Of a stretch of 64,000 nt of DNA, positions 5,404 through 18,745 are shown one piece after another. Each line of letters opens with the position of its first letter. Positions within the stretch are counted from its first letter, which is position 1. Source of the DNA: Aliidiomarina taiwanensis. GTDB lineage: Bacteria > Pseudomonadota > Gammaproteobacteria > Enterobacterales > Alteromonadaceae. Below the pieces are notes generated by a model. It saw only the letters and a list, made by a program, of their open reading frames with translations. It had not been told where the DNA came from and did no database searches. Where the stretch lies: NCBI RefSeq assembly GCF_003987015.1, contig NZ_PIPQ01000008.1:1-64000 (forward strand). The letters are read 5' to 3'. Both the position numbers and the translations under genes were made by a program.

Positions 5404-5931
5404 TTAACCTGCGTCAAGAAAGGTTTCTTTAAACCAGCGGTTGAGCATTTTTATTTCTGAACCTATGGTTTCTTCGTCACGCTTGCTTACCTTAGGGAAG
5501 TTTGAAATACCTTCCGTACGAATGGCGCGGCCGGTTATTTCCACATCTGCAGCTTCAGCTAACACTGTACCCTCTTTATCTTTCAGCGTGTAACTTAAGG
5601 TCATGCTGGGAAAGTCATTGGGAAATTGAGAGCGCGTAAAGGCAGAACGATTTCCAGGACCTGCGTCCGCTTGCTGCACTCCCGCCATATCATAGTCTGT
5701 CACTACAATATGGAGCTGCTCACCCTGCTTGAAGTGCATTGTCGCTAGCTTATTCAGGTGTCGCGCCAAACGCTCCAAGCGAATATTTAACGACGCATTA
5801 TCCGGGTCTAAATGGTTTACCTTTGCATCAGTATACTCGCTCGGGTTTTTCCATTCGACCGTGACAGGCTCGGCAGCGAGCCCCGCGTGAGCCCAAAAAA
5901 GTGCGCATAAAAGTAGTATATAGCGTTTCAT
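5404..5931 (-). CDS. DUF3016-family secreted protein
   Basis: 175 residues with a clear Sec signal peptide (about 1-19, cleaved after AGLAA). The mature part begins VTVEWKNPSEYTDAK and carries the pattern of the DUF3016 family of Alteromonadales. A paralog lies 0.4 kb upstream (6314-6829), sharing V-W-P--Y-D at the N-terminus and a C-terminal RWF(K/R)(E/F)-F motif. Function unknown; probably periplasmic. Converges with epmB. Confidence 0.8.
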   Translation of the reverse strand: MKRYILLLCALFWAHAGLAAEPVTVEWKNPSEYTDAKVNHLDPDNASLNIRLERLARHLNKLATMHFKQGEQLHIVVTDYDMAGVQQADAGPGNRSAFTRSQFPNDFPSMTLSYTLKDKEGTVLAEAADVEITGRAIRTEGISNFPKVSKRDEETIGSEIKMLNRWFKETFLDAG

Positions 5932-6313: not shown

Positions 6314-6829
6314 TTACTTAACGTAATTTTCAAAACGGAAGCGGAACCAACGCTCAATCATCGCTTTTTCATAGTCCAGCAGGTCATGCTGCGGGCGGGC
6401 CTGGCGGGCGATACGGCCTTGCCCTGGTAACTCCCGACCACGCAAACGTTCCTCGCCAGCTTCCACCTGCACACCTTTCTCGTTCAATAACTGATAGCTG
6501 AACTCAATACGTGGGAAGTCATTACTTTTCACCACCCGTAACATCTGCATTCTGCCTAAGTCCGTATTGAAAATAACTTCACCCGCTAAATCTAAGTCCG
6601 TTACCTTCAGCTTTAAGGTATAACCTTCTGGTAAACGGTCTGTGATATAGTCGAAGTACATTTCGAACTCTTCGAAAATACGCTTTTCAAATCGGCTTTG
6701 TATTTCTTCACCCGCACGAACATCGCGATATTTTTCGGGTTCATGCCAGGAGACCTCGGCAGTTCCAGCCCACGCAGTAACCGAAACGAAACTTAACAGT
6801 ACTAACATTCCATACATTTTCATCATCAT
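6314..6829 (-). CDS. DUF3016-family secreted protein (paralog)
   Basis: 171 residues, signal peptide about 1-21 (cleaved after AWA), mature part starting GTAEVSWHEPEKYRDV. Same layout as the 5404-5931 gene: V-W--P--Y-D near the N-terminus, a central DLDLAGEV region and C-terminal MIERWFRFRF. Probably periplasmic, function unknown. Its start lies about 90 bp from the hairpin at 6919-6951, which now insulates it from transcription out of the integrated element. Confidence 0.8.
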   Translation of the reverse strand: MMMKMYGMLVLLSFVSVTAWAGTAEVSWHEPEKYRDVRAGEEIQSRFEKRIFEEFEMYFDYITDRLPEGYTLKLKVTDLDLAGEVIFNTDLGRMQMLRVVKSNDFPRIEFSYQLLNEKGVQVEAGEERLRGRELPGQGRIARQARPQHDLLDYEKAMIERWFRFRFENYVK

Positions 6830-6918
6830 TCCTCGCCTTCTGTGAGCCTACATTGAAAGCATACATACACCTTCGCCGATTTACCGTCAGAATGCTTTTT
6901 ACTTTGTAAAAGTTTGTC

Positions 6919-6951
6919 AAAAAAAAGGGAGATGCCGCAGCATCTCCCTTT
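6919..6951 (-). terminator. displaced original groL terminator
   Basis: Perfect 12-bp stem (AAAGGGAGATGC/GCATCTCCCTTT) with a 4-base loop, followed on the minus strand by U8. It lies 41 bp beyond the left copy of the groL 3' end, where the groSL operon would have ended before insertion. It is now about 10 kb from groL. Confidence 0.85.
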
Positions 6952-6992
6952 CATTTTATAAACTAGGCTTAGCTTATATGATGAAGCAAGGC

Positions 6993-7011
6993 TTACATCA
7001 TGCCGCCCATA
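6993..7011. repeat. attL core (groL 3'-end duplicate)
   Basis: TTACATCATGCCGCCCATA, identical to 17090-17108. On the minus strand it encodes the last groL codons M-G-G-M-M and the stop. It is the chromosomal remnant created when the element recombined into groL. Confidence 0.92.
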
Positions 7012-7076
7012 ACAAATCATAACCGCATGATATTGCAGTTATTTATTCTTTTTCATACACTTAATGCAAACATTCC

Positions 7077-7096
7077 TGTCAACAAAACTGTCAACA
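7077..7096. repeat. left integrase arm-type repeat
   Basis: The 20-mer TGTCAACAAAACTGTCAACA contains two TGTCAACA units and is exactly repeated at 17021-17040. It sits 65 bp inside attL and just upstream of the integrase start, so it probably binds the integrase and may also govern its expression. Confidence 0.75.
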
Positions 7097-7106
7097 TTAA
7101 GTAGTC

Positions 7107-8414
7107 ATGAGCAAGAAAAAATCGATTATTGACCGCAACCTGAACAAGCGTGGCAACGTCTATTGGTACTCTCGAAGAATCCCTAAAGAATTACATGATG
7201 TTCTTGGCAAAAAGCGTGAAGACATATCCCTGAAAACTAGCGACCTCCAACTAGCACGAATACTCAGAGATGAAAAAGATGCGGAAATATCTCGCCTGTT
7301 ATACCACAAGACTGCACTTCGTAGAGCCAAGCTAGAGCAGGCGCTAGGTGACTTTAGACTTTACCAAATGAAGTCAGTGGATTCCGGCTCAGTGTTTATC
7401 GATTTTCCACTATCATCAGCAGATCTGAGAGCAATGGGGCATGAAGTAGAAGCAGATGCTCTTAGTATTCTAGAAGGCTCAAAAGAAACGAAAGAGAAGT
7501 ATAGCTTGAGCTTAGGTGAGGCCGTTTCACTCACTAAGCAGCGCAAGCAAGGTAGCATTACAGATGAGTCATTACATCGCTATGACAAAGCAGCGGAAAA
7601 GTTTGCGGAGTTTATGCGAGAAGATGTTCATTCGCTTCCACTAAAATCAATAGACCGAGTGACTGCACATAAATTTGTGCGTTTCCTAGAAACCTCAAGC
7701 TATAAGCGAGCAACTATTCAAGGCTTACTCAACCGTCTCAAGGTTGTATGGCAGCAATCAGCTAACTTAGGTCATGTCGGGCATGAAAACCCGTTCGATA
7801 ATCAAGACATAATTGTCGCGGACACTCGTGAGGACAACAAAACACAATTGTTTAGTGATGCCGAGCTTGAGCAAATTATCGATTTGGTCAACCAGCAATC
7901 CCGAGACTTTAAGCTCATTATCAAAATTCTAGCGTTTACAGGCGCTCGCCCTGCGGAAATCTGTAACCTGTCCGTAGATGCGTTTAGGGAGCATGAGGGA
8001 GTAAAGGTGCTAGTTATTAAACAGGGGAAAACGCTCGCAGCATCAAGGTTTATTCCGCTCACCGAAGAATTGATTAATGACATCGAAAGTCACTGCAACC
8101 TGCGTGTGGCAGATGCCCCGCTCTTTGATTTGGATGCTAAAGAAGTTGGTCGCATATTTTCAAGATTGAAATCTAAGGTAATTTCTAGTGACGAGCGAAA
8201 AGTAATGTATAGCTTACGGGTTCACTTTGCCACCGCAGCTCAGCGTGCTGGCGTGAGAGAAGATATAGCTGCTCAAATAGTCGGGCACTCGAATGCCAAA
8301 ACGTTAACTTTTGGGTACTACTCGAAAGGACATGAAGCTCCCGTATTAAAGCAAAATTACGATAAGATAGCCCTATACATTAGGGAGCGTTGGAAAATGC
8401 ACATCCGCATCTAA
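7107..8414 (+). CDS. tyrosine-type site-specific integrase (DUF6538-like N-terminus)
   Basis: 435 residues. The N-terminus (RNLNKRGNVYWYSRRIPKEL) resembles the DUF6538 arm-binding region of phage-like integrases. A SAM-like core-binding domain follows at about 133-235 and the catalytic domain at about 245-410. Visible catalytic residues: Arg281 (TGARPAE), Arg371 in YSLRVHFAT (box II begins Y-S-L-R rather than the usual H-x-L-R), His394 (VGHSN) and the nucleophile Tyr404 or Tyr405 (FGYYSKG). It lies immediately inside attL and should integrate and excise the element at groL. Confidence 0.93.
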   Translation: MSKKKSIIDRNLNKRGNVYWYSRRIPKELHDVLGKKREDISLKTSDLQLARILRDEKDAEISRLLYHKTALRRAKLEQALGDFRLYQMKSVDSGSVFIDFPLSSADLRAMGHEVEADALSILEGSKETKEKYSLSLGEAVSLTKQRKQGSITDESLHRYDKAAEKFAEFMREDVHSLPLKSIDRVTAHKFVRFLETSSYKRATIQGLLNRLKVVWQQSANLGHVGHENPFDNQDIIVADTREDNKTQLFSDAELEQIIDLVNQQSRDFKLIIKILAFTGARPAEICNLSVDAFREHEGVKVLVIKQGKTLAASRFIPLTEELINDIESHCNLRVADAPLFDLDAKEVGRIFSRLKSKVISSDERKVMYSLRVHFATAAQRAGVREDIAAQIVGHSNAKTLTFGYYSKGHEAPVLKQNYDKIALYIRERWKMHIRI

Positions 8415-8487
8415 CAAGATAAAAATAGCCAAGTTAATGTCGGTAACTGCGACTTTCGATGGTAACATCGTAATCGATTTCGGAATT

Positions 8488-8682
8488 TTACTTTTCTCTC
8501 TCTTTTAAGATTGACTCAAGTCGTCGAACGACTAAAGTGCAAACATAGTCAGGGGGAGTTTTTTCTCCCATGAGCCAGCTCTGTAAAGTTCGATGGGGAA
8601 CACCGTACAGCAGCTCACATAGCTCTCTCTGGCTTACATTAAGCTTAGCTTTATAGCTTTTAATTTGCTCACAAAAATTCAT
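8488..8682 (-). CDS. small XRE-family helix-turn-helix regulator
   Basis: 64 residues. The single domain is a Cro/C1-type HTH (VSQRELCELLYGVPHRTLQSWLMGEKTPP). It is divergent from the C5 methyltransferase with 70 bp between the start codons, and that gap contains a 21-bp near-perfect palindrome. Placement and size suggest it controls the restriction-modification locus, like a C protein. A directionality or lysogeny-type regulator of the element is the alternative. No enzymatic domain. Confidence 0.75.
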   Translation of the reverse strand: MNFCEQIKSYKAKLNVSQRELCELLYGVPHRTLQSWLMGEKTPPDYVCTLVVRRLESILKEREK

Positions 8683-8691
8683 CTACCCGCC

Positions 8692-8719
8692 TTGACATTG
8701 CGCACTGAGTGCGTAATAT
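8692..8719 (+). promoter_or_regulatory. methyltransferase promoter with palindromic operator
   Basis: TTGACA (8692-8697), 16-bp spacer, TAATAT (8714-8719). Overlapping it, 8697-8717 forms an inverted repeat around G8707 with half-sites ATTnCGCACT and AGTGCGnAAT; only the n pair is asymmetric. The XRE protein encoded 10 bp to the left is the likely ligand (inference). Confidence 0.65.
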
Positions 8720-8752
8720 GTGGTGGTATAGTTAACGAACAACGAGACAACC

Positions 8753-9922
8753 ATGAACAAACCAATCCTATTCTCTTTCTTTTCCGGCTCAGGTTTTCTT
8801 GACCTTGGTTTCGAATTAAACGGCTTCGATGTCCAGTTCGTTAACGAGTACCATGTTCCATTTCTCAAAGCTTATCAATATAGCAGAAGCAGGCTAGGCA
8901 TTTCGACTCCTAAGTTTGGGGTGGACAGCTCTGACATAGACCATTTGGTTTATGGTGAAGGTCGAGCTTTGTTATCTCAAAAAGTGAGTAAGGCTAAAGA
9001 GAGTGGCTCGCCTGTCGGATTTATTGGAGGGCCACCTTGTCCTGACTTTTCGGTCGGAGGTAAAAACCGTGGGCACGAGGGCGAGAATGGTCGTTTAACT
9101 CGTACCTATGTCGATGGCATCATCAAGTACGCTCCTGATTTTTTCATCTTTGAAAACGTTAAAGGTCTATGGAGGACAAAACGACATCGTGAGTTTTATG
9201 AGCAGATGAAGGCTAATCTAGTTGAAGCTGGATATGAGCTTGCGGATCGGCTCACTAACTCTATCGAGTACGGCGTTCCCCAAGACCGAGACCGCATCAT
9301 TCTATTCGGAGTCAAAAAAGCATCGCTGTCATCAAAGTTAAGCAAACCATTACTCGATGCTCTCGGTTGGGAGTCATACGTTAAGTATGACCGAGACCGC
9401 ATATTAGGTAGTGAAGCTTGGCCGACCACAAGTGCATACAGAGAAGACAGTAAGCTCCCTTTACCCAAGAGTGTCCAGGGTTTAGAGCAATTAACAGTCG
9501 AGTATTGGTTCAATAAAAATAATGTCTCCAAACATCCGAACTCGTGTCATCATTTTGTGCCGAGAGCAGCGTTAAGTCGTTTTCAAACCATTGACGAAGG
9601 TGATGTCGGTAAAAAGTCGTTTAAAAGGCTACACCGTTGGCGTTATTCACCAACAGCGGCATATGGAAACAATGAGGTACACATACACCCATATAAGAGC
9701 CGACGAATCTCAGCGGCAGAAGCTCTAGCGATTCAGTCTCTACCGAAAGAGTTTGAGCTTCCCGCTGATATGTCACTGAGTAATATGTTCAAAACCATTG
9801 GTAATGGCGTGCCTTATCTGTTGAGTGAAGGCATTGCTCAAATGGTGTCCGTTTTTATCGGTCGTTATTTATCTCAAGAATTACCTCAAGAGCATCGTGA
9901 AGCTGCTCAACAGAGTCAATAA
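8753..9922 (+). CDS. DNA (cytosine-5-)-methyltransferase
   Basis: 389 residues. Modification half of a type II system. Canonical m5C motifs in order: I FSFFSGSGFLDLGFE (7-21), IV GGPPCPDFS with nucleophile Cys96, VI FENVKG (E134), VIII YGVPQDRDR (Q177, R179, R181), a target-recognition region at about 200-330, and X TIGNGVP near the C-terminus. The last 68 bp overlap the convergent endonuclease gene. By analogy with M.Cfr10I-type systems it should methylate a CCGG-core site (inference). No strong ribosome site is seen. Confidence 0.95.
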   Translation: MNKPILFSFFSGSGFLDLGFELNGFDVQFVNEYHVPFLKAYQYSRSRLGISTPKFGVDSSDIDHLVYGEGRALLSQKVSKAKESGSPVGFIGGPPCPDFSVGGKNRGHEGENGRLTRTYVDGIIKYAPDFFIFENVKGLWRTKRHREFYEQMKANLVEAGYELADRLTNSIEYGVPQDRDRIILFGVKKASLSSKLSKPLLDALGWESYVKYDRDRILGSEAWPTTSAYREDSKLPLPKSVQGLEQLTVEYWFNKNNVSKHPNSCHHFVPRAALSRFQTIDEGDVGKKSFKRLHRWRYSPTAAYGNNEVHIHPYKSRRISAAEALAIQSLPKEFELPADMSLSNMFKTIGNGVPYLLSEGIAQMVSVFIGRYLSQELPQEHREAAQQSQ

Positions 9923-10724
9923 CAAAAACATCATCTACCGCTGCTTGCGGCTTACTCGATACGTTAGTAATTGAGTGGGTCGCAACTGTTTTTAGAGCCT
10001 CTCTATCAGAATTATTTACCTTTGTTGCCGCAGCGTAGTACTTGAGTGCTTTAGGGTCAATTATCCAGCTACGGGTTTGAAGGTGAACATGAATGGCTTT
10101 CATTAATGAGCCTTCATGCGGAATTTGAAGTCGCCTATCGGGTCTGAAAGTCGTCTTGACTGAAAAATAGCCCCGTATATCGTCAAATGAACACTGCCCA
10201 ATAAAATCCTGATACGCCGTATCGAGTAGGTCTAGGTCATCAACGGTAAGGCGTCCAAATGGGATGTGAAACCTATGTGGAAGCTCGATATTACTTGTAT
10301 CTATAATCACAAAATCTGGGTTAGAAGTGATTAATTCAACATCAGATGATTCTGATACTTTTTGTCTAAGATCTGCTATTTGGTCTGAGAACTTATCCTG
10401 ATATAGCTTAGAAACATCGAATCTTTTTTTGTTCGGTAAGTTCAGAATTAGAAGAGGAGATTGCTTCTTTATCCGGTAGTTCCATGCGTTTGCGCCAATA
10501 ATCCATTCATACCAGTCGCCTCGAGCATTGTTGAGAGCGCCTCGCTCTAATCCAGCATTCATTGCTACCGAATCAATTTGAGTAAACGCATCCATTATTT
10601 TGAGATCTGGTGCGTGATAGACATCGGAGAAAAAGTTTACAAAGGTTTCGGCCTTCTTTAGCTCAAGACCGCCATCTGTTTTTTGCCCGATGGCCGCCTG
10701 TCGTTTCGATAAATCTATGTTCAT
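9855..10724 (-). CDS. Cfr10I/Bse634I-like type II restriction endonuclease
   Basis: 289 residues. It carries the CCGG-family nuclease signature PD-x(46-55)-(S/T)xK-x(12-14)-E: P136-D137, then 50 residues, then S188-V189-K190, then 13 residues and E204. Published Cfr10I active-site numbers are, from memory, D134, S188, K190 and E204. The enzyme family recognises RCCGGY or a related CCGG-core sequence; the specificity here is inferred, not shown. It is convergent with and overlaps the methyltransferase, so the two are separately transcribed. Only a weak ribosome site is seen. Confidence 0.85.
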   Translation of the reverse strand: MNIDLSKRQAAIGQKTDGGLELKKAETFVNFFSDVYHAPDLKIMDAFTQIDSVAMNAGLERGALNNARGDWYEWIIGANAWNYRIKKQSPLLILNLPNKKRFDVSKLYQDKFSDQIADLRQKVSESSDVELITSNPDFVIIDTSNIELPHRFHIPFGRLTVDDLDLLDTAYQDFIGQCSFDDIRGYFSVKTTFRPDRRLQIPHEGSLMKAIHVHLQTRSWIIDPKALKYYAAATKVNNSDREALKTVATHSITNVSSKPQAAVDDVFVIDSVEQLHDALEVILEINNDR

Positions 10725-10950
10725 TCAGAGTTCTCTTTTTTCAATCCTTAAGATTGTCAGTCCATATATCAAGTAGAAGGGCATTTAAAATGTACGTCTT
10801 TCTTATCACCACAATCTAACTTATGAAAAACAACTATTCAGAAATATTTTGAACGTCACTTGTATCGTCGATATTAACAGCCTTGTTTTAAGACGTACTC
10901 GGACTATTTTGCCACAAAAATCTGAGAGGGTATTTTACAATCAGTAAAAG

Positions 10951-10975
10951 GCCATCCCCCCCCTTGGTAGGGGGC
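10951..10975 (-). terminator. possible terminator with 8-C tract
   Basis: On the minus strand, GCCCCC, a 6-base loop and a G8 run form a strong hairpin followed by ATGGCCTTTTA. It lies 33 bp beyond the stop of the zinc-ribbon gene. The T run is short, so efficiency is uncertain. The rest of 10725-11008 shows no gene. Confidence 0.45.
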
Positions 10976-11008
10976 TAAGTTCTAGCGTAATTGGCACTAA
11001 GCGTTGGT

Positions 11009-11578
11009 CTATTGAGTTCTCCACTCACCAGTTCTGGCGTTCCGCTCTATCTGTTTAATAACCTTGTCTTTAATCTCAGTATCGGAAAGGACTCTATGCG
11101 TGTAGCTAGTTCTTTTGGTCGGCTTCAAGTTTTGAGGCCATGTCCAATTGCATGAATCGTTATCGCACACGTAATTTGCTTCCGCATCAGGATAATATCC
11201 GTTTAAATCATCTAGCTTCATTTGGCACGACGGGCAATATGCAAATAGGTCATTGATGCTTACACAGTATTCAAGGTCATGTCTGTAACTTGTAGTCCAT
11301 TTCCATTTCCAAGTTAAACCGTATATCGAGTCTTCAAAGTAGGTGGTGTATGACGGATACTCAACCTTTGAATTTACAGTGCGTAGCTTGTCTCTAATGA
11401 AAAAGACTAATATGGTAATTAAGGCAATAACCACGATAGCCCATATTGGCAGCTCGAATGTAAAAGCATATCTCAACCATGAAACCACCTCCCTTACCCC
11501 TACACTGTATGAAGTGAGGAAAAATGACACGAATAAGATGAAAAGAGGATGCTTCAAGATTTTTTTTAATACCAGCAC
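11009..11578 (-). CDS. two-TM protein with C-terminal zinc ribbon, unknown function
   Basis: 189 residues. Two membrane helices (about 9-28 and 44-62), then a soluble domain with a CxxC...CxxxxC zinc-ribbon pattern (C115, C118, C138, C143). The aromatic-rich stretch before it (LTWKWKWTTSY, 88-98) is unusual. I do not recognise a named family. Separate promoter likely; neighbours are the endonuclease gene downstream and the resolvase gene upstream (divergent). It could be cargo such as a membrane-linked defence sensor, but nothing in the sequence proves it. Confidence 0.75.
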   Translation of the reverse strand: MLVLKKILKHPLFILFVSFFLTSYSVGVREVVSWLRYAFTFELPIWAIVVIALITILVFFIRDKLRTVNSKVEYPSYTTYFEDSIYGLTWKWKWTTSYRHDLEYCVSINDLFAYCPSCQMKLDDLNGYYPDAEANYVCDNDSCNWTWPQNLKPTKRTSYTHRVLSDTEIKDKVIKQIERNARTGEWRTQ

Positions 11579-11717
11579 AATTTATTTCCCTTCATATTTT
11601 CCTCAACTATTGAATAGGCTTGCAGAAAGCATTATCCGAACATTTTGTATGCTGTGGCTTATCCAGTAAACAATACAACAACATAAGCCGGATTGACACA
11701 AATAGGTATAGAGTAGC

Positions 11718-11749
11718 GATACACTCGTATGAGACACAAAAAGTGTATC
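11718..11749. repeat. inverted repeat upstream of resolvase (candidate resolution site)
   Basis: GATACACT (11718-11725) and AGTGTATC (11742-11749) form perfect 8-bp arms 16 bp apart, giving a 32-bp site about 80 bp before the resolvase start. Size and placement fit a serine-recombinase crossover subsite or an autoregulatory operator. Confidence 0.5.
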
Positions 11750-11829
11750 AATAGAGTTGATTTTTATATTTTGAGGCGGTATAACTTTAGCAGTCTAGAC
11801 TTAAATGAGACAGTTGAGGTTATACAGAC

Positions 11830-12384
11830 ATGCAAAACATTGGTTACATCCGAGTATCAACAGTTGACCAAAAGACCGACCGCCAGCTTGACGGTATCCA
11901 ATTAGACCGAGTGTTCACTGATAAATGCTCAGGCTCTACTACCGAGCGTCCACAACTAGAACAGCTAAAGGCGCATGTCCGAGAGGGTGACATCGTTCAT
12001 GTGCATAGCATTGACCGAATGGCTCGTAACCTAGAGGACTTACTCGATTTAATCAGGTTCTTTGATGACAAGGGTGTTCAGGTTCAATTCAAGAAAGAGA
12101 ACATGACGTTTGGTGGTGCTGAGAGTAATCCCATGCAGAAGCTCATTCTGTCAGTCATGGGATCTGTCGCTGAGTTTGAGCGAGCGATTATCTTAGAGCG
12201 CCAGCGAGAGGGCATAGAGAAAGCTAAACAGCGTGGCGTTTACAAAGGGCGTAAGAAGTCGGTCGATAGAGACAAGGTGCTTGAGCTTCACCAGCAAGGC
12301 ATTAAGAAAATGCAGATAGCCAAGAAGTTAGGCATAGGTCGAGCGACGGTCTATCGGATACTTGAAGAGCAGGCTGAGGGCTAG
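11830..12384 (+). CDS. serine recombinase (resolvase/invertase family)
   Basis: 184 residues, the full length of Tn3-resolvase/Hin-type enzymes. The catalytic Ser is S10 in GYIRVST, with Arg8 beside it. The other active-site region is HSIDRMARN at about 58-66, the E-helix region spans about 100-130, and a C-terminal HTH reads KMQIAKKLGIGRATVYRIL. No transposase or terminal repeats are visible around it, so it may resolve multimers of an excised circular form or invert a local segment. Start: ATG at 11830 with a modest GAGG upstream. Confidence 0.93.
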   Translation: MQNIGYIRVSTVDQKTDRQLDGIQLDRVFTDKCSGSTTERPQLEQLKAHVREGDIVHVHSIDRMARNLEDLLDLIRFFDDKGVQVQFKKENMTFGGAESNPMQKLILSVMGSVAEFERAIILERQREGIEKAKQRGVYKGRKKSVDRDKVLELHQQGIKKMQIAKKLGIGRATVYRILEEQAEG

Positions 12385-12552
12385 TTAATTAGGCTGGTAT
12401 GCGAACTGAATTTGACAAGTGCCGCTCTATAAACTTCTTTATATATGCTACATCCAGCATTTATCCATAATGCGACCCTAACGAGCAAGGGGGTTACATT
12501 TGGGTAATCTCCGAGCGCTCGGCTTTTACCGAGAATTAGCGAGGAACTGTCG

Positions 12553-12663
12553 ATGGCAAAAACCAAAGATGGTAAAAAGAAAGTTTACGTCGCTGAGCAT
12601 GTGCGGATTATTAACGGCAAGAAAGTTAAAATTCCGGCTCATTACCGCTCAACAAATGACTAA
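12553..12663 (+). CDS. 36-residue basic microprotein
   Basis: Very short open frame (MAKTKDGKKKVYVAEH..., ending HYRSTND). It has AGGA 7 bases before the ATG and a composition (Lys-rich, VRIINGKKVKIPAHYRS) that looks like a folded miniature domain rather than noise. Similar small V-x-x-H-x-R proteins occur on plasmids and islands (recollection, not checked). It lies downstream of the resolvase, after a palindrome CCGAGCGCTCGG at about 12510-12521. Function unknown. Confidence 0.55.
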   Translation: MAKTKDGKKKVYVAEHVRIINGKKVKIPAHYRSTND

Positions 12664-12815
12664 ACTTTGATGAGATGCTGGGTGTAGCACTATTATAGGT
12701 TCAATGAAGTCAGAGAACAGCATCTGATATTTTTGGTTTAAAATTTCTGAGTCAACATGGTTGATTTAATATTTGCACGAGCATTAAAGCCATTGGTCTT
12801 AAAAGAATTAGATGT

Positions 12816-13403
12816 CTACTCCGATAATGGAGCTACAATAGACGTCGCCAAGGCTTCAATCGCTTCCTTTTTTGTTTGCTCGGGGGTTACCCACCACATA
12901 AGCCCGCCAACAACTACTGCCACAAACAGACTCGCAGCAAGGCTGGATAATCCGCTCAAAAACCAATTCAAAGCTTTTTCTCTGAATTTGGGATTTTTAT
13001 AAGTTCGGGCTGCCGCCACAAGCTTTTTGGCCTCGGCATCGAGCGCTTTTTTGGCGGCAGACTCCAATTTCTGCTTTCGCTCAAGCCACTCTCTTTCTTG
13101 TTGCTCATGTTTCCGATTAAACTTGTCGCTTATTTCACGCTCGATTTTATCCGTTATACCTACTAAGAATCGTGTCGCGGACTCCACATAGGTGTTTAAT
13201 ATCTCTTGGCTTTTCACCGCATTATCATGGTGGGCTTGAACACGAGTGCGTATTTCTTCCTCAGAGGCACCCTCTTCTCTAAGCTTGACTGCAATTTCGT
13301 GCTTAGCTTTTTTGTAAAACGAATAAGCGATAAAACCTACGGGGTCATTGTCTCCTTTTACCAAGCACTCGAAGACCCAATTTTTATTTTTATTATCGAC
13401 CAT
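12816..13403 (-). CDS. coiled-coil protein with C-terminal membrane anchor, unknown
   Basis: 195 residues. The N-terminal segment (KNWVFECLVKGDNDPVGFIAYSFYKKAKHE, about 7-36) looks like a short folded domain. A long charged helical or coiled-coil stretch follows (about 80-132), then one membrane helix (about 150-172). Sequences starting with such an NDPVGFIAYxxYK motif occur in other gammaproteobacterial islands (recollection), but I can name no function. Probably a tail-anchored inner-membrane protein. Monocistronic or loosely linked to the 70-residue gene upstream on the same strand (54 bp gap). Confidence 0.7.
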   Translation of the reverse strand: MVDNKNKNWVFECLVKGDNDPVGFIAYSFYKKAKHEIAVKLREEGASEEEIRTRVQAHHDNAVKSQEILNTYVESATRFLVGITDKIEREISDKFNRKHEQQEREWLERKQKLESAAKKALDAEAKKLVAAARTYKNPKFREKALNWFLSGLSSLAASLFVAVVVGGLMWWVTPEQTKKEAIEALATSIVAPLSE

Positions 13404-13456
13404 AATCGAGTCTCGTATTTATATTCCATTATTTTATTGAGCTGACAACGGGAAGG

Positions 13457-13669
13457 TTACGCTTTGTTATAGGCCGATAAAAACAAATCACCCCAACGGC
13501 TATTTAGCTGTTTACGACTTTTTTTCTTATGAGCCGCAACAGATTTCTTATCAGCTAATTCGGAGATAACAACTTTTTCAAGTGCCTTCTCGATTAACTT
13601 TCGCTTTTCCGAGTCAGTTAAACTACGGTATGGCCTAATTCTATTTCTCATATTCCCCCTCCCGCGCAT
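13457..13669 (-). CDS. small basic protein, unknown
   Basis: 70 residues, highly basic (RNRIRPYRSLTDSEKRKLIEKALEKVV at the N-terminus), predicted mostly helical. GGGAGGGGG lies just before the ATG, and an in-frame ATG at codon 7 is another option. It may be a nucleic-acid-binding accessory protein. It borders the repeat-rich non-coding tract ahead of the polymerase-like gene and reads away from it. Confidence 0.5.
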   Translation of the reverse strand: MRGRGNMRNRIRPYRSLTDSEKRKLIEKALEKVVISELADKKSVAAHKKKSRKQLNSRWGDLFLSAYNKA

Positions 13670-14217
13670 TCGTAATTTTAGGCGAAAATCTAACCTGATT
13701 CAAACTTTTAAACCAACCACCAAATTTGAGTGGAATGCTCATACAACTTTCCCACCCCTATGGGGAGGCTAAGCCCCTGTTTTAGCGCTTTCCAGCAAAT
13801 CCCACCCCTATGATAAAGCCGCCGTAGTTGTGGTGGTTTTGTCGATACGTTGTCGGTGGCTAGTGATTCTCTGGTCATTGGCTTGGTAGATAATTACTCA
13901 ATAACAATCACAGTACGAGTGAGCTAACGGTTGTCTGTTAGTTACCAGTTACCTTGTCTTAGATTGATTAATTAACCATCAAACTAAGTGATTTCAACTG
14001 GTCTATAAACAGATGACGAGCCTTGTCTCAGTAACCATCAACCATCTACTAGCCAAGCATTGACCAAGCACTAGACCTCACTGATTTCATCGTATTGTCC
14101 TTTATCATTTATTCATTAACCAAGCAGACGCTGGGGGTGACTTAGCTATCTTAGAGACGACCTTAAGTCATTAGGGTATGGTTTAGAAAACCTTGAGCCT
14201 ACCTAGCGTCCTCTTAT
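13670..14217. repeat. repeat-rich non-coding tract, candidate replication origin/control region
   Basis: About 550 bp without a convincing gene. It contains TCCCACCCCTATG twice, 50 bp apart (13750, 13800); CCTTGTCT twice (13952, 14021); TAACCATCAA twice (13973, 14032); CCAAGCA three times (14053, 14064, 14120); and tandem AGTTACC at about 13941. Short direct repeats immediately upstream of a polymerase-like gene resemble iteron-type origins or promoter control regions (inference). The repeats are seen directly. Confidence 0.45.
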
Positions 14218-14227
14218 GGAGGGCTCC

Positions 14228-15529
14228 ATGATTCATCAGTCAATTACACGTTCAAAACGTAACTACGAATGGTCAAAGACACTATGTGAACACTATGATT
14301 TCTCTGGTTCAGTGCGAGATGTATCTCTAGACACCAGCTCAGGGTTGTCAGGTAGTGCAATAGATGACCTGTTTAGTGAGTGGTATCCAAGCATTAGCAA
14401 CAGAGCTAAGCGTGGTACAAAGCAGGCCTTTCAGTCAGCCTTATTGAACATCGCTAATGCGCTGAGTGAAACCGACAGATACCAAGAGCCTACTGGATTT
14501 CTCTGCTCTACGCTGAACAAGTACAAGCGAGAGATTAAGCGGTACAAAGACAACGATTTTAGCCGTGTACTCTTTGCATCGGTACTGAGAGATCTGGCCA
14601 ATAGAGGCTTCTTAGATCTTTACCGAGGGTTTAAGGGCGAGAACCATACGAAAGGACTGCTCTCCCTTTGGTTGCCAACAGATAGCGCTAGAGAGCTTCT
14701 CAGTGAGCTTAGCGCCAGCTCTGAGGTGATACCATTTCACGATAGCATTGAGCCGATTGTGCTTAAAAGTGACAAGGGTGAACTCATCGACTACCAAGAC
14801 AACGATGAGTCACGCTTAATGCGCTCAGAGCTAGAGCTATTGAATGAACTGAGAGAGTCAGTAACGTGGTCTTATCGTCCTGCTGAACGCATTCATAGCG
14901 ACACTGGTAAAGCGTTTCTAAGTGACCAATATGTGACGCTAGGCTCTCGTAATGTCCGCTTCAAACGCTCATTCAAGGGTTCATTCAGTATCGGTGGTCG
15001 GTACTACGGGAATGCTCAGTGTCTAAGCAAGGCTGAACGCTCCACTATCATCATCAATGGTGAGCCAACGACTGAGCAAGACATCAAGAGTATGCATGTT
15101 CGTATGCTCTACAACTATCTGGGGAAACCAGCGCCAGCTGATGGTTATGACATTGACGGATATGACCGAGAGACCGCTAAGAAAGTGGCTCTGATTGCGC
15201 TTAATGCTGACTCTGAGAAGTCCGCTGCTGGCGCTATTCGTCAGAGTTTAGGGTTTACCTCAGATGAAGCAAAGCAAGCCATAGAGAGCTTTAGGCAAGC
15301 CCACAAGCCAATCGCTCAGTTCTTGTATTCGTCGAGTTGGAAGCAACTGCAATACCTAGATAGTGAGTTAGCGAGAGGGATACAGCTAAAAGCCGCTGAA
15401 CAGGGGATTCCAGTGATACCCATTCACGATAGCTTTCTAGCTGGTGCGGGCAAGGCTGATACATTGACTGAGATAATTCATAGCGAGTATGAGAAAAGAT
15501 TTGGGTATCCGCCCGTGATTACCATGTAA
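14228..15529 (+). CDS. compact family-A-like (Pol I/T7 RNAP-type) nucleic acid polymerase
   Basis: 433 residues from the ATG at 14228, which has GGAGG 5 bases upstream; the ATG at 14216 overlaps that site and is unlikely. Numbered from 14216, the C-terminal part has the family-A palm order. Motif A is QDIKSMHVR, with D289 and R296 spaced as in DYSQIELR. Motif B is R318-x3-K322. Motif C is IPIHDSF, with H404-D405 followed by Ser as in T7 RNA polymerase. The Glu of Pol I motif A is His here. No exonuclease domain. The N-terminal 270 residues are unrecognised, with a winged-helix-like stretch at about 115-140. Probably replicates or primes the element. Confidence 0.7.
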   Translation: MIHQSITRSKRNYEWSKTLCEHYDFSGSVRDVSLDTSSGLSGSAIDDLFSEWYPSISNRAKRGTKQAFQSALLNIANALSETDRYQEPTGFLCSTLNKYKREIKRYKDNDFSRVLFASVLRDLANRGFLDLYRGFKGENHTKGLLSLWLPTDSARELLSELSASSEVIPFHDSIEPIVLKSDKGELIDYQDNDESRLMRSELELLNELRESVTWSYRPAERIHSDTGKAFLSDQYVTLGSRNVRFKRSFKGSFSIGGRYYGNAQCLSKAERSTIIINGEPTTEQDIKSMHVRMLYNYLGKPAPADGYDIDGYDRETAKKVALIALNADSEKSAAGAIRQSLGFTSDEAKQAIESFRQAHKPIAQFLYSSSWKQLQYLDSELARGIQLKAAEQGIPVIPIHDSFLAGAGKADTLTEIIHSEYEKRFGYPPVITM

Positions 15530-15617
15530 ACCCCATCGATAATTCTCATCTGGTGCGCTGGTTTCTGAGCCTGTGCACCGGATGCGCCGAACCAAGATTT
15601 ATTCTTATCTTGAACTT

Positions 15618-16043
15618 TTAGCTATCGACCTGTTTGCGTCTTGCGTCAAGCATTTTAATTGCTCTACTGTCCGAAAAATAAACAATTGATGCATATACAA
15701 AAACAAAAAGCTGTAATCCCCCAAGCCAATAGCTCGGCTTTATTAACATAATCAGATAGATTGAACTTGATATAACAACGCCAAAAATTCTCTTTGCAAC
15801 ATGGTATTCGGCGTAATCATGATTTACTTTCACTTGCGCTTTCGAGGTGGTATTTGACATTCGAGCCGCGAGTTGTCCAAGTACTAGTGTAGATGCTAAC
15901 GACCAATCTGGCGCTAGGATAAGCTGAGATAGACTTTCATTCACAAAAGTCTTTACCAAGACGAGCAAAGTCAGTGGCAAAAGAACGAAGACGTACCCCG
16001 TTTTTAAGCCCCACTCAAACCCGATATTGATTTTAGAATTCAT
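15618..16043 (-). CDS. small multi-pass membrane protein, unknown
   Basis: 141 residues, three or four membrane helices (about 14-31, 46-62, 86-102, 106-123), with a cytoplasmic-type basic tail. Its start overlaps the end of the 16033-16896 gene by 11 bp, so the two are translationally coupled and probably act together. I recognise no family. A soluble upstream partner plus a membrane protein is a common layout of anti-phage modules, but this is only an analogy. Confidence 0.7.
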   Translation of the reverse strand: MNSKINIGFEWGLKTGYVFVLLPLTLLVLVKTFVNESLSQLILAPDWSLASTLVLGQLAARMSNTTSKAQVKVNHDYAEYHVAKRIFGVVISSSIYLIMLIKPSYWLGGLQLFVFVYASIVYFSDSRAIKMLDARRKQVDS

Positions 16044-16896
16044 CGAATCCGCCCTGATTCAGTTTATGTCGCACAATCTCATATACATGTACTATTTTGG
16101 CGTTTTTAATATCTGAAAATATCCCATCTCCGCCATCACAATATTCCATCTCAACTAAAGCGACCATTACATCTTTCGCTCCAATCCCCGAAAACTCAGA
16201 ATTCTGGTACTTTTTCAACCACTCCTCGTGAACAACTTTAGCCTTAAAGACCGATTTGGTTTTGTTGTCTCTAAATGTCCATACGGAATCGCCTTCATTG
16301 ACTGCGATTTTGACGGTTAGATACATTTTCTGCCTTACAAAATGACCTTCGGCAAGGAACATCTCCTTTACGTTTGCGTTAAATCGCCAGTCAGTATTTA
16401 GGCGAAGCGTTTTATCTGATGCATCCCGATTAATAAACTCAACCGACTCAGACTCAACTACTCTTTCATTAACACTTGAGAGTTCGGCCAATACCTCAGC
16501 GAACGCCTCTCGAGAAATTACTGGATAATGACCATCCACGAAACCAACCGCAGCATCGTTTAACTCTTTTTCTGCTTCTTCGACTAGTTTTTCCACCTGC
16601 TCCCTGTTGGAGATATTCTCTACAAGATTTGCAAATGTCCTATCAGAGGATTTTCTGACTGCATCAACCACATAGCTTTGCGCACCCTTAGCCTTTGCGG
16701 CGATTTGCCCGATGAGCGAGCCAACCTTGACCTTTTCCAATTCATAAATTAATTCTTCGCTTTCTCCAAGTGCTGCGCTTAATACATTTCCTAGCTTTGT
16801 ATAAACTCTAATGTAACCAGCCATAACCTCGAATACTTCCGCTGGACTTTGATGCCCAGAGCTAAAGTTGTATTTGATGTCGATTCCCTGAGCCAT
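16033..16896 (-). CDS. unknown soluble protein, first gene of two-gene operon
   Basis: 287 residues. The N-terminal half is helical with a hydrophobic stretch (about 25-75) and a charged helix (about 95-115). The C-terminal half (about 160-275) looks beta-rich (MYLTVKIAVNEGDSVWTF, KIVHVYEIV) and could be a binding or sensor domain. No signal peptide and no catalytic motif seen. Coupled to the membrane gene 15618-16043 and read toward the element interior. GGGAGGCGGCG precedes the ATG. Likely cargo of the element; function unknown. Confidence 0.7.
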   Translation of the reverse strand: MAQGIDIKYNFSSGHQSPAEVFEVMAGYIRVYTKLGNVLSAALGESEELIYELEKVKVGSLIGQIAAKAKGAQSYVVDAVRKSSDRTFANLVENISNREQVEKLVEEAEKELNDAAVGFVDGHYPVISREAFAEVLAELSSVNERVVESESVEFINRDASDKTLRLNTDWRFNANVKEMFLAEGHFVRQKMYLTVKIAVNEGDSVWTFRDNKTKSVFKAKVVHEEWLKKYQNSEFSGIGAKDVMVALVEMEYCDGGDGIFSDIKNAKIVHVYEIVRHKLNQGGFDEF

Positions 16897-16968
16897 GCGC
16901 CGCCTCCCTATAAGGTCAATAAGCTAGAGTTATTACCACCTTAGCAAAACTTCAACTAAAAGTTACAA

Positions 16969-17005
16969 AAAACAAAAAAGGGAGATGCCGAAACACCTCC
17001 CCTTT
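16969..17005 (-). terminator. element-borne surrogate groL terminator
   Basis: Imperfect hairpin (GGGAG-A-TG pairing with CA-C-CTCCC) whose downstream side on the minus strand is U-rich. It lies about 85 bp after the groL stop. The string AAAAAAGGGAGATGCCG is shared with the original groL terminator at 6921-6937, suggesting the element carries a terminator copy acquired from a groL locus. Confidence 0.7.
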
Positions 17006-17008
17006 CAC

Positions 17009-17040
17009 TGTCAACATCAATGTCAACAAAACTGTCAACA
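17009..17040. repeat. right integrase arm-type repeats
   Basis: Three direct TGTCAACA units (17009, 17021, 17033). The last two form the 20-mer identical to 7077-7096. They lie 50 bp inside attR, as expected for integrase or accessory-factor arm sites. Confidence 0.75.
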
Positions 17041-17089
17041 CGATTGCGTAACCCTTTGTTTTATAAGGGATACGATGACGGCTTCGATA

Positions 17090-18745
<1,656 letters not shown>

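Follow-up and report, generated by a model that had tools for sequence, protein, structure and literature searches.

A predicted compact family-A polymerase of the TV-Pol type in a small integrative element at groEL of Aliidiomarina taiwanensis

The polymerase gene and its product

The stretch of DNA analyzed here (the window) comprises the first 64,000 nucleotides of contig NZ_PIPQ01000008.1 of Aliidiomarina taiwanensis (assembly GCF_003987015.1). A 10.1-kb element sits in the 3' end of its groEL gene and, besides a tyrosine integrase, a serine resolvase, and restriction-modification genes (Table 1), harbors an open reading frame (ORF) that, according to sequence profiles and a structural model, encodes a compact family-A polymerase-like protein with a reduced core, to be placed in the TV-Pol family discussed below. 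The ORF is uninterrupted from 14216 to 15529 (+) and counts 437 amino acids (aa) from the in-frame ATG at 14216; the ATG at 14228 is the preferred start, since GGAGG is located 5 nt 5' of it and the equivalent codon is the first in-frame Met in the homologs from Pseudidiomarina indica, P. donghaiensis, and P. aestuarii. Residue numbers refer to the 433-aa form; those of the first-pass annotation of this DNA followed the 437-aa frame (+4), so that its D289, K322, and D405 correspond to D285, K318, and D401. The gene is present in a single copy in the 2.53-Mb genome and is under purifying selection, the ratio of nonsynonymous to synonymous substitution rates (dN/dS) being 0.10-0.19 over residues 1-424, 0.05-0.10 over residues 186-424, and 0.22-0.26 over residues 1-185 (six pairs from four sequences).

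The first-pass annotation had read in this protein the motifs A (D-x6-R), B (R-x3-K), and C (HDSF), all of which are present in the claimed order. Their conservation was checked on 33 homologs (L028, a partial sequence, and L002, from the same place as L020, were left out here and in the tree). D285, K318, D401, R271, and Y307 are invariant (33/33), R314 and H400 are kept in 32 sequences, and the fingers Asp D305 in 29. R258, which aligns with the Arg of the Pol I TGR stretch, is shared by 32 of the 33 homologs and replaced by Lys in the remaining one; strands 246-250 and 258-260 precede the palm in the AlphaFold2 (AF2) secondary structure, in keeping with the Arg-bearing beta-hairpin described for TV-Pols (PMC2579912). 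Moreover, 28 homologs have H290 where Pol I carries its steric-gate Glu, and 28 have N326 in place of the motif B Tyr common to Pol I and T7 RNA polymerase (RNAP).

Direct searches with the single sequence retrieved little: Pfam DNA_pol_A (PF00476) did not match the protein up to E 1, phmmer yielded 0 matches among PDB sequences up to E 10, and all NCBIfam matches were far below cut-off, while PHROG 4756 matched residues 53-428 with E 1.3e-41. An exonuclease domain was absent in the Pfam and PHROG scans and in the AF2 model, in agreement with the reduced size and the lack of such a domain previously proposed. The profile obtained from the homologs (alignment A6) was then compared, using hhalign, with a Pol A profile that combines 24 family-A polymerases of bacterial genomes with that of T7 and seven phage ones (32 sequences in total), giving a score of 51.9 (E 2.1e-5, probability 77) and pairing D285 with the motif A Asp, R314/K318 with RxxxK, and HD401S with HDE. 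A second alignment (A1) scored 47.6 (E 7.2e-5); as controls, 60 column-shuffled A6 profiles scored at most 21.6 and the reversed A6 profile 17.2. The first-pass assignment of D289, K322, and D405 to motifs A, B, and C of Pol I (D705, K758, and D882 in its E. coli numbers) is upheld by hhalign, in register with other Pol I sequences.

The AF2 model, built from a 17-sequence alignment, has a mean predicted local distance difference test score (pLDDT) of 87 and a predicted template modeling score (pTM) of 0.81. A Foldseek search of the PDB gave 611 matches with E <= 10, 19 of them with E <= 0.001; all 19 are Pol I-type enzymes (Taq and its variants, Aquifex, apicoplast), Pol theta, or mitochondrial RNAP. 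The best is a Taq variant, presumably SFM4-3 (E 1.9e-5), followed by Taq Pol I itself at E 2.5e-5; the match to human mitochondrial RNAP had E 6.7e-5. Among predicted viral proteins, the top ranks are taken by equally sized phage proteins (lowest E 2.3e-22), which include the Barba31A "DNA polymerase" (E 8.3e-19). In the model, D285 lies at a strand end and D401 in a turn joining two strands, an arrangement that would resemble the family-A palm. Model, Foldseek, and hhalign hence agree with the family-A type of palm that had been claimed for this mobile-element protein; a fold lacking the palm was not what the prediction returned.

The N-terminal domain, modeled alone, reached a pLDDT of 84 and a pTM of 0.81. 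Of its 470 Foldseek matches with E <= 10, none had E <= 0.001, and PadR-type winged helices rank first and second, namely 9qbc (E 0.07) and 3l7w (smu.1704, E 0.09). AbfR2, LmrR, Cdc6/Orc1, and replication terminator protein, which share the winged-helix fold, are frequent among the 50 listed matches, alongside unrelated folds. With the A6 and A1 profiles, only N-terminal stretches were matched (Cdc6, E 0.56; MarR, E 0.4); a further alignment (A7, leaving out L026 and L028) gave ZitR (E 0.24) and topoisomerase I (E 0.6), and Penicillinase_R matched the N-terminal domain of one of 15 members (E 0.007). The domain is probably a DNA-binding winged helix, an assignment that is weak.

The integrative element at groEL

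The element is delimited by a 19-bp exact att repeat, TTACATCATGCCGCCCATA, identical to the groEL 3' end, with a repeat interval of 10,097 bp. The sequence TGTCAACA occurs five times in 6900-17200 (at 7077, 7089, 17009, 17021, and 17033), on a single strand and always beside the element ends, so placed that the copies are likely arm-type integrase sites. A search of 16 other genomes of the genus showed groEL adjoining a relative of the DUF3016 gene flanking the element in all of them, with no integrase match in between; therefore, the site is empty in 16/16. Two paralogous DUF3016-type genes adjoin at window positions 5404-5931 and 6314-6829 (minus), and neighboring pairs are also found in genomes G059 and G513.

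Table 1. Features of the polymerase gene and of the element that carries it (window coordinates).
Feature	Position	Strand	Evidence
Predicted TV-Pol / divPolA2-like family-A polymerase, 433 aa	14228..15529	+	PHROG 4756, AF2, Foldseek, hhalign
N-terminal domain core, about residues 43-150, tentative winged helix	14354..14677	+	helix/strand order, weak winged-helix matches
Predicted palm-and-fingers core of minimal size (residues ~255-425)	14990..15502	+	model secondary structure, Foldseek, hhalign
Motif A Asp285 codon	15080..15082	+	33/33; paired with the motif A Asp in Pol I
Motif B Lys318 codon	15179..15181	+	33/33; aligned with Pol I RxxxK
Motif C Asp401 codon, in HDSF	15428..15430	+	33/33; aligned with HDE, 32-sequence Pol A profile
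Non-coding stretch upstream of polymerase; candidate control/origin region	13750..14227		DNA matches running on through gene start here
attL core, 19-bp repeat of groEL 3' end	6993..7011		exact repeat of 17090-17108
TGTCAACA, two copies spaced by 12 bp; likely arm-type sites of the integrase	7077..7096	+	sequence
Tyrosine integrase, DUF6538 N-terminal domain, 435 aa	7107..8414	+	PF20172 7.8e-13, PF00589 2.1e-10
Cargo: C5 cytosine DNA methyltransferase	8753..9922	+	PF00145 3.7e-43
Cargo: Cfr10I/Bse634I-type restriction endonuclease	9855..10724	-	PF07832 6.8e-63
Small serine resolvase/invertase, 184 aa	11830..12384	+	PF00239 4.9e-37, PF02796 4.8e-14
TGTCAACA, three copies spaced by 12 bp; likely arm-type sites of the integrase	17009..17040	+	sequence
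attR core, within groEL 3' end (groEL 17090-18730, minus)	17090..17108		exact repeat of 6993-7011

The polymerase gene is near groEL in P. indica (L016) and P. aestuarii (L018) too. The P. donghaiensis locus (L017) has 95% DNA identity across 13751-15516, and its 17 kb contain nothing that matches groEL, from which it follows that the polymerase module has moved. According to the comparison of locus DNA, the cargo differs from element to element and the polymerase is constant. For two further element genes of unknown function, at 16033-16896 and 12816-13403 (minus), the matching phage families (phrog_27740, E 1.4e-38, and phrog_25194, E 3.3e-25) are likewise functionally uncharacterized. The element also includes unassigned ORFs.

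The DNA from about 13750 through the polymerase gene matches that of P. indica at 93%, P. donghaiensis at 95%, and P. aestuarii at 81%; because the non-coding stretch travels with the gene between elements, it was kept as a candidate control region. The first-pass annotation had proposed, giving no coordinates, a repeat tract upstream of the gene as part of a replication module. Such a tract was not recovered: the region 13650-14260 contains six short direct-repeat families with 2-3 copies each, Tandem Repeats Finder reported no array in it, and there was no k-mer excess, so that a repeat-based origin was rejected. Rfam gave no match within 6900-17200. Between the resolvase and polymerase modules, window 12693-13750 and P. 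indica L016 6487-7530 share no DNA match, the flanks being 95% and 93% identical; as judged from the sequence, this intervening DNA differs by block exchange.

The linkage to recombinases was assessed by tblastn of six integrases and four resolvases, most of them from the loci themselves, against 22 loci including the window. An integrase was found at 13/22 loci and a resolvase at 10/22; phage contigs and two loci of just 3.6 kb are among those with no match. Seven neighboring integrases besides that of the window match DUF6538 and/or Phage_integrase (Pfam). DUF6538 is present in nine of the 13 genomes searched and in none of 14 control genomes; in eight of these nine, it lies 1.6-7.6 kb from the TV-Pol gene, and in six of the eight it is the sole DUF6538 of the genome, although these six are not independent, five being close relatives. 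In the ninth genome (G556), the DUF6538 match is outside the polymerase stretch analyzed, in which the contig end truncates an integrase-like ORF. Other neighbors in the relatives are type I, II, and III restriction-modification genes, EcoRII-C, KilA-N, and an nSTAND-type gene (just below cut-off). Furthermore, an RNase HI gene (L020 9335-9799, PF00075 6.5e-32) lies directly 3' of the Psychrosphaera TV-Pol gene, which hints at the handling of RNA primers or R-loops.

Known relatives and distribution

TV-Pols were defined in 2008 by Iyer, Abhiman, and Aravind (PMC2579912). One subset of them has an additional N-domain, is encoded near a gamma-delta resolvase, a lambda-type integrase, a Bro/KilA gene, and restriction-modification genes, and was proposed to carry out both priming and synthesis; a D5-like helicase is the partner of the other subset and is not required for this one (PMC2579912). 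The window protein shares with TV-Pols the Arg before the palm, the two palm Asp, the fingers Asp with RxxxK, and the lack of a nuclease, and its element, like those of the N-domain subset, carries integrase, resolvase, and restriction-modification genes nearby; the species list includes Reinekea sp. (PMC2579912), and our homologs include Reinekea blandensis MED297 (L022). A D5-like helicase is absent from the ten element ORFs covered by our domain scan (overlapping antisense ORFs were left out), and no D5_N match was found genome-wide. The TV-Pol N-terminal domain was predicted to be all-helical (PMC2579912), whereas the present model mixes helices and strands in a winged-helix-like manner. 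Helix 193-210 and further helices lie N-terminal to the palm in the AF2 secondary structure; the TV-Pol thumb consists of two anti-parallel helices. Thus, by most of the criteria printed in PMC2579912, rather than by sequence comparison, the window protein is a TV-Pol of the N-domain subset; compared with the published elements, an att site and an empty site are defined here.

A second group of relatives is represented by divPolA2, known from barbaviruses as well as from other phages (Yutin et al. 2024, PMC11348598), for which the choice between a repair polymerase and an RNA polymerase was left undecided. The homology with the window protein is nearly full-length (Barba10S vs. the A6 profile, E 5.8e-36 when 5 phage proteins were searched), and divPolA2 is described as having an active palm, no recognizable thumb, no exonuclease, and a globular N-terminal domain, for which no similarity was found (PMC11348598), an overall layout like that predicted here. 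It differs in residing in tailed phages with their own polymerase, instead of in a small integrative element. In the available text on either family, the two names are not joined, PMC11348598 using "TV-Pol" once, as background; from the sequences, we infer that TV-Pol and divPolA2 are one family.

Priming has been shown for CCPol-MP, and CCPol, itself a TV-Pol, prefers deoxynucleotides (dNTPs) (PMC7581432); it was placed among the TV-Pols in 2008, according to PMC7581432 and PMC10061031. The PolA-SSB primases (SSB, single-stranded DNA-binding protein) all belong to Bacillota and are all near helicases (PMC10061031). The CCPol-MP and PolA-SSB systems, found on SCCmec and on further Bacillota islands, resemble that of the window in the family-A core, the integrative island, the site-specific recombinase, and the restriction-modification cargo (PMC7581432, PMC10061031). 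The window system differs in its fused N-terminal domain, its tyrosine integrase, and the lack of a recognized MP or helicase. With Pol I, the window protein shares motifs A, B, and C, the Arg before motif A, and the palm and fingers fold; it is much shorter, lacks exonucleases, and has His for the steric-gate Glu, Asn for the motif B Tyr, and HDS for HDE. The novelty as a class suggested by the first-pass annotation is not supported, because TV-Pols with integrase and resolvase (PMC2579912) and their phage kin (PMC11348598) had already been described in 2008 and 2024; the window protein is a new member of a described family, not a new class. What is new here are the element boundaries, the proposed TV-Pol/divPolA2 link, and the weak assignment of the N-terminal domain to the winged helices.

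The nearest homologs found are from Pseudidiomarina species. Including the window genome, the polymerase is present in 4 out of 147 genomes of its family and in 2 out of 394 of the order set; 3 of 72,556 plasmids had a match, and a search of genome contigs led to 12 confirmed loci out of 58 pattern matches. Phages are richer: 74 of 50,697 records matched the window protein, and 290 did so when an Aeromonas phage homolog was the query, 115 Rheinheimera phages and ICP1 being among them. In the 33-row tree, one branch (support 80/79) splits 13 phage rows from 18 cell-or-plasmid rows, two rows being in neither group and many branches being long.

As regards single records, ICP1 phages have two strongly divergent alleles of the divPolA2/TV-Pol relative (L173, ICP1_2004_A, 1141-2625; L176, ICP1 1992, 1303-2607), and in record MW794164 the match is shortened. 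A distant TV-Pol relative occurs at both ends of a 2.53-Mb contig (G006 C1 3839-4423 and 2530007-2530591), probably representing the overlapping ends of a circular assembly. On a Thioclava plasmid (L008 5503-8582), an IS21 element lies directly 5' of a 311-aa TV-Pol frame lacking most of the N-terminal domain.

Possible function of the protein

In our opinion, and with a probability of roughly 0.58, the TV-Pol would be a primase-polymerase for the element's own DNA, presumably active, able to prime, and using dNTPs over ribonucleotides (NTPs). It would represent a core gene of a small integrative element made up of a tyrosine integrase, a serine resolvase, the TV-Pol, and exchangeable defense cargo: the integrase would excise or insert the element; the TV-Pol would prime and copy its DNA when circular or arriving single-stranded; the N-terminal domain would hold the template, as the separate MP does for the CCPol of SCCmec; and the resolvase would resolve multimers. 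It is conceivable, though we hold this part only tentatively, that primase and polymerase are united here in one chain, the SSB-like MP being replaced by a winged-helix domain that is fused to a minimal family-A palm, and that divPolA2 is the same enzyme in a different setting; if true, a 10-kb element could start DNA synthesis with neither a DnaG- or AEP-type (archaeo-eukaryotic) primase nor a helicase of its own.

Several data weigh against a primase-polymerase. The 19 PDB fold matches have low TM-scores (0.25-0.41 by query) and root-mean-square deviations of 6-20 Å, so that the likeness of fold is local, and the family-B Pol alpha comes next in the Foldseek list (E 5e-3). When only the 25 bacterial and T7 Pol A sequences were used, the A6 and A1 profiles gave probabilities of 19 (E 0.0012) and 6.7 (E 0.0054), respectively, and both alignments ended before motif C. 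A recognized helicase was found in 0/10 scanned element ORFs, while 17/17 PolA-SSB pairs have one (helicases having partly served as bait in that survey; PMC10061031). An OB-fold partner was not identified either, no ORF adjacent to the polymerase matching Pfam as an OB-fold SSB (MP itself is without an identifiable domain). There are no iteron-like repeats upstream, the k-mer repeats of five upstream regions not exceeding 200 dinucleotide shuffles (P 0.06-1). Lastly, the seven phage records tested out of the 74 matching ones all have their own full-size Pol A (open frame 780-903 aa) as well as a DnaB-type helicase match, one of the Pol A and two of the helicase matches being under the family cut-off; in these records, at least, the TV-Pol kin is therefore not the replicase, and this candidate role was rejected. 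Since no recognized helicase and no D5_N match were found, the "self-contained" module of the first-pass annotation is not supported, a role in a replication module being plausible. On the whole evidence, we would rank the primase-polymerase for the element first, an RNA polymerase second, and repair or gap filling third.

The main rival, which we regard as unlikely, is a single-subunit RNAP of the T7/mitochondrial type, which would use a promoter of its own to transcribe genes of the element (or phage), or would lay RNA primers; this option was kept for divPolA2 in PMC11348598. Motif C is HDSF as in T7 RNAP, RNA polymerase families were matched (phrog_414, E 0.0014; PF00940, E 0.25), and POLRMT is among the best PDB folds, all of which fit an RNAP as well. 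The His at the Pol I steric-gate position also favors the RNAP; the Asn replacing the motif B Tyr, which is common to Pol I and T7 RNAP, does not. Nor does the profile comparison, in which the strong match was that with Pol A, while with 20 T7-like RNAPs the alignment of A6 was confined to 39 columns around HDSF (score 28.6; best shuffle 25.7). The control Pol A profile, that of a recognized relative of T7 RNAP, scored only 17.8 against the same RNAPs; the comparison therefore lacks power, and its result is compatible with RNAP kinship. The preference of CCPol, a TV-Pol, for dNTPs (PMC7581432) speaks against the RNAP.

Rather improbable is a repair or gap-filling polymerase that does not prime but aids integration, lesion bypass, or the synthesis of the second strand once DNA has been taken up. 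It would fit the lack of a recognized helicase in the element, the repair role suggested for divPolA2 together with its variable neighborhood (PMC11348598), and the second-strand synthesis raised for related primases (PMC10061031); the N-terminal domain, which probably binds DNA, and the association with a resolvase would look more replicon-like. An anti-phage defense gene carried as cargo, a possibility raised for related primases (PMC10061031) and in line with the restriction-modification neighbors in several elements, is very improbable, given that PADLOC models were matched by 0/17 members at E <= 1, that the cargo varies while the polymerase stays, and that kin occur in tailed phages. A degenerate protein with no polymerase activity, for which the unusual compactness might speak, is hardly credible in view of the invariant catalytic residues and of the low dN/dS over residues 186-424.

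The N-domain TV-Pols were proposed to be primase-polymerases in 2008 (PMC2579912), and the bench tests in the available literature concern the CCPol type only. A small and well-bounded element with an intact gene in a marine bacterium would thus offer a test case for the questions on both N-domain TV-Pols and divPolA2, and bears on the minimal size at which a family-A polymerase may still be able to start a chain.
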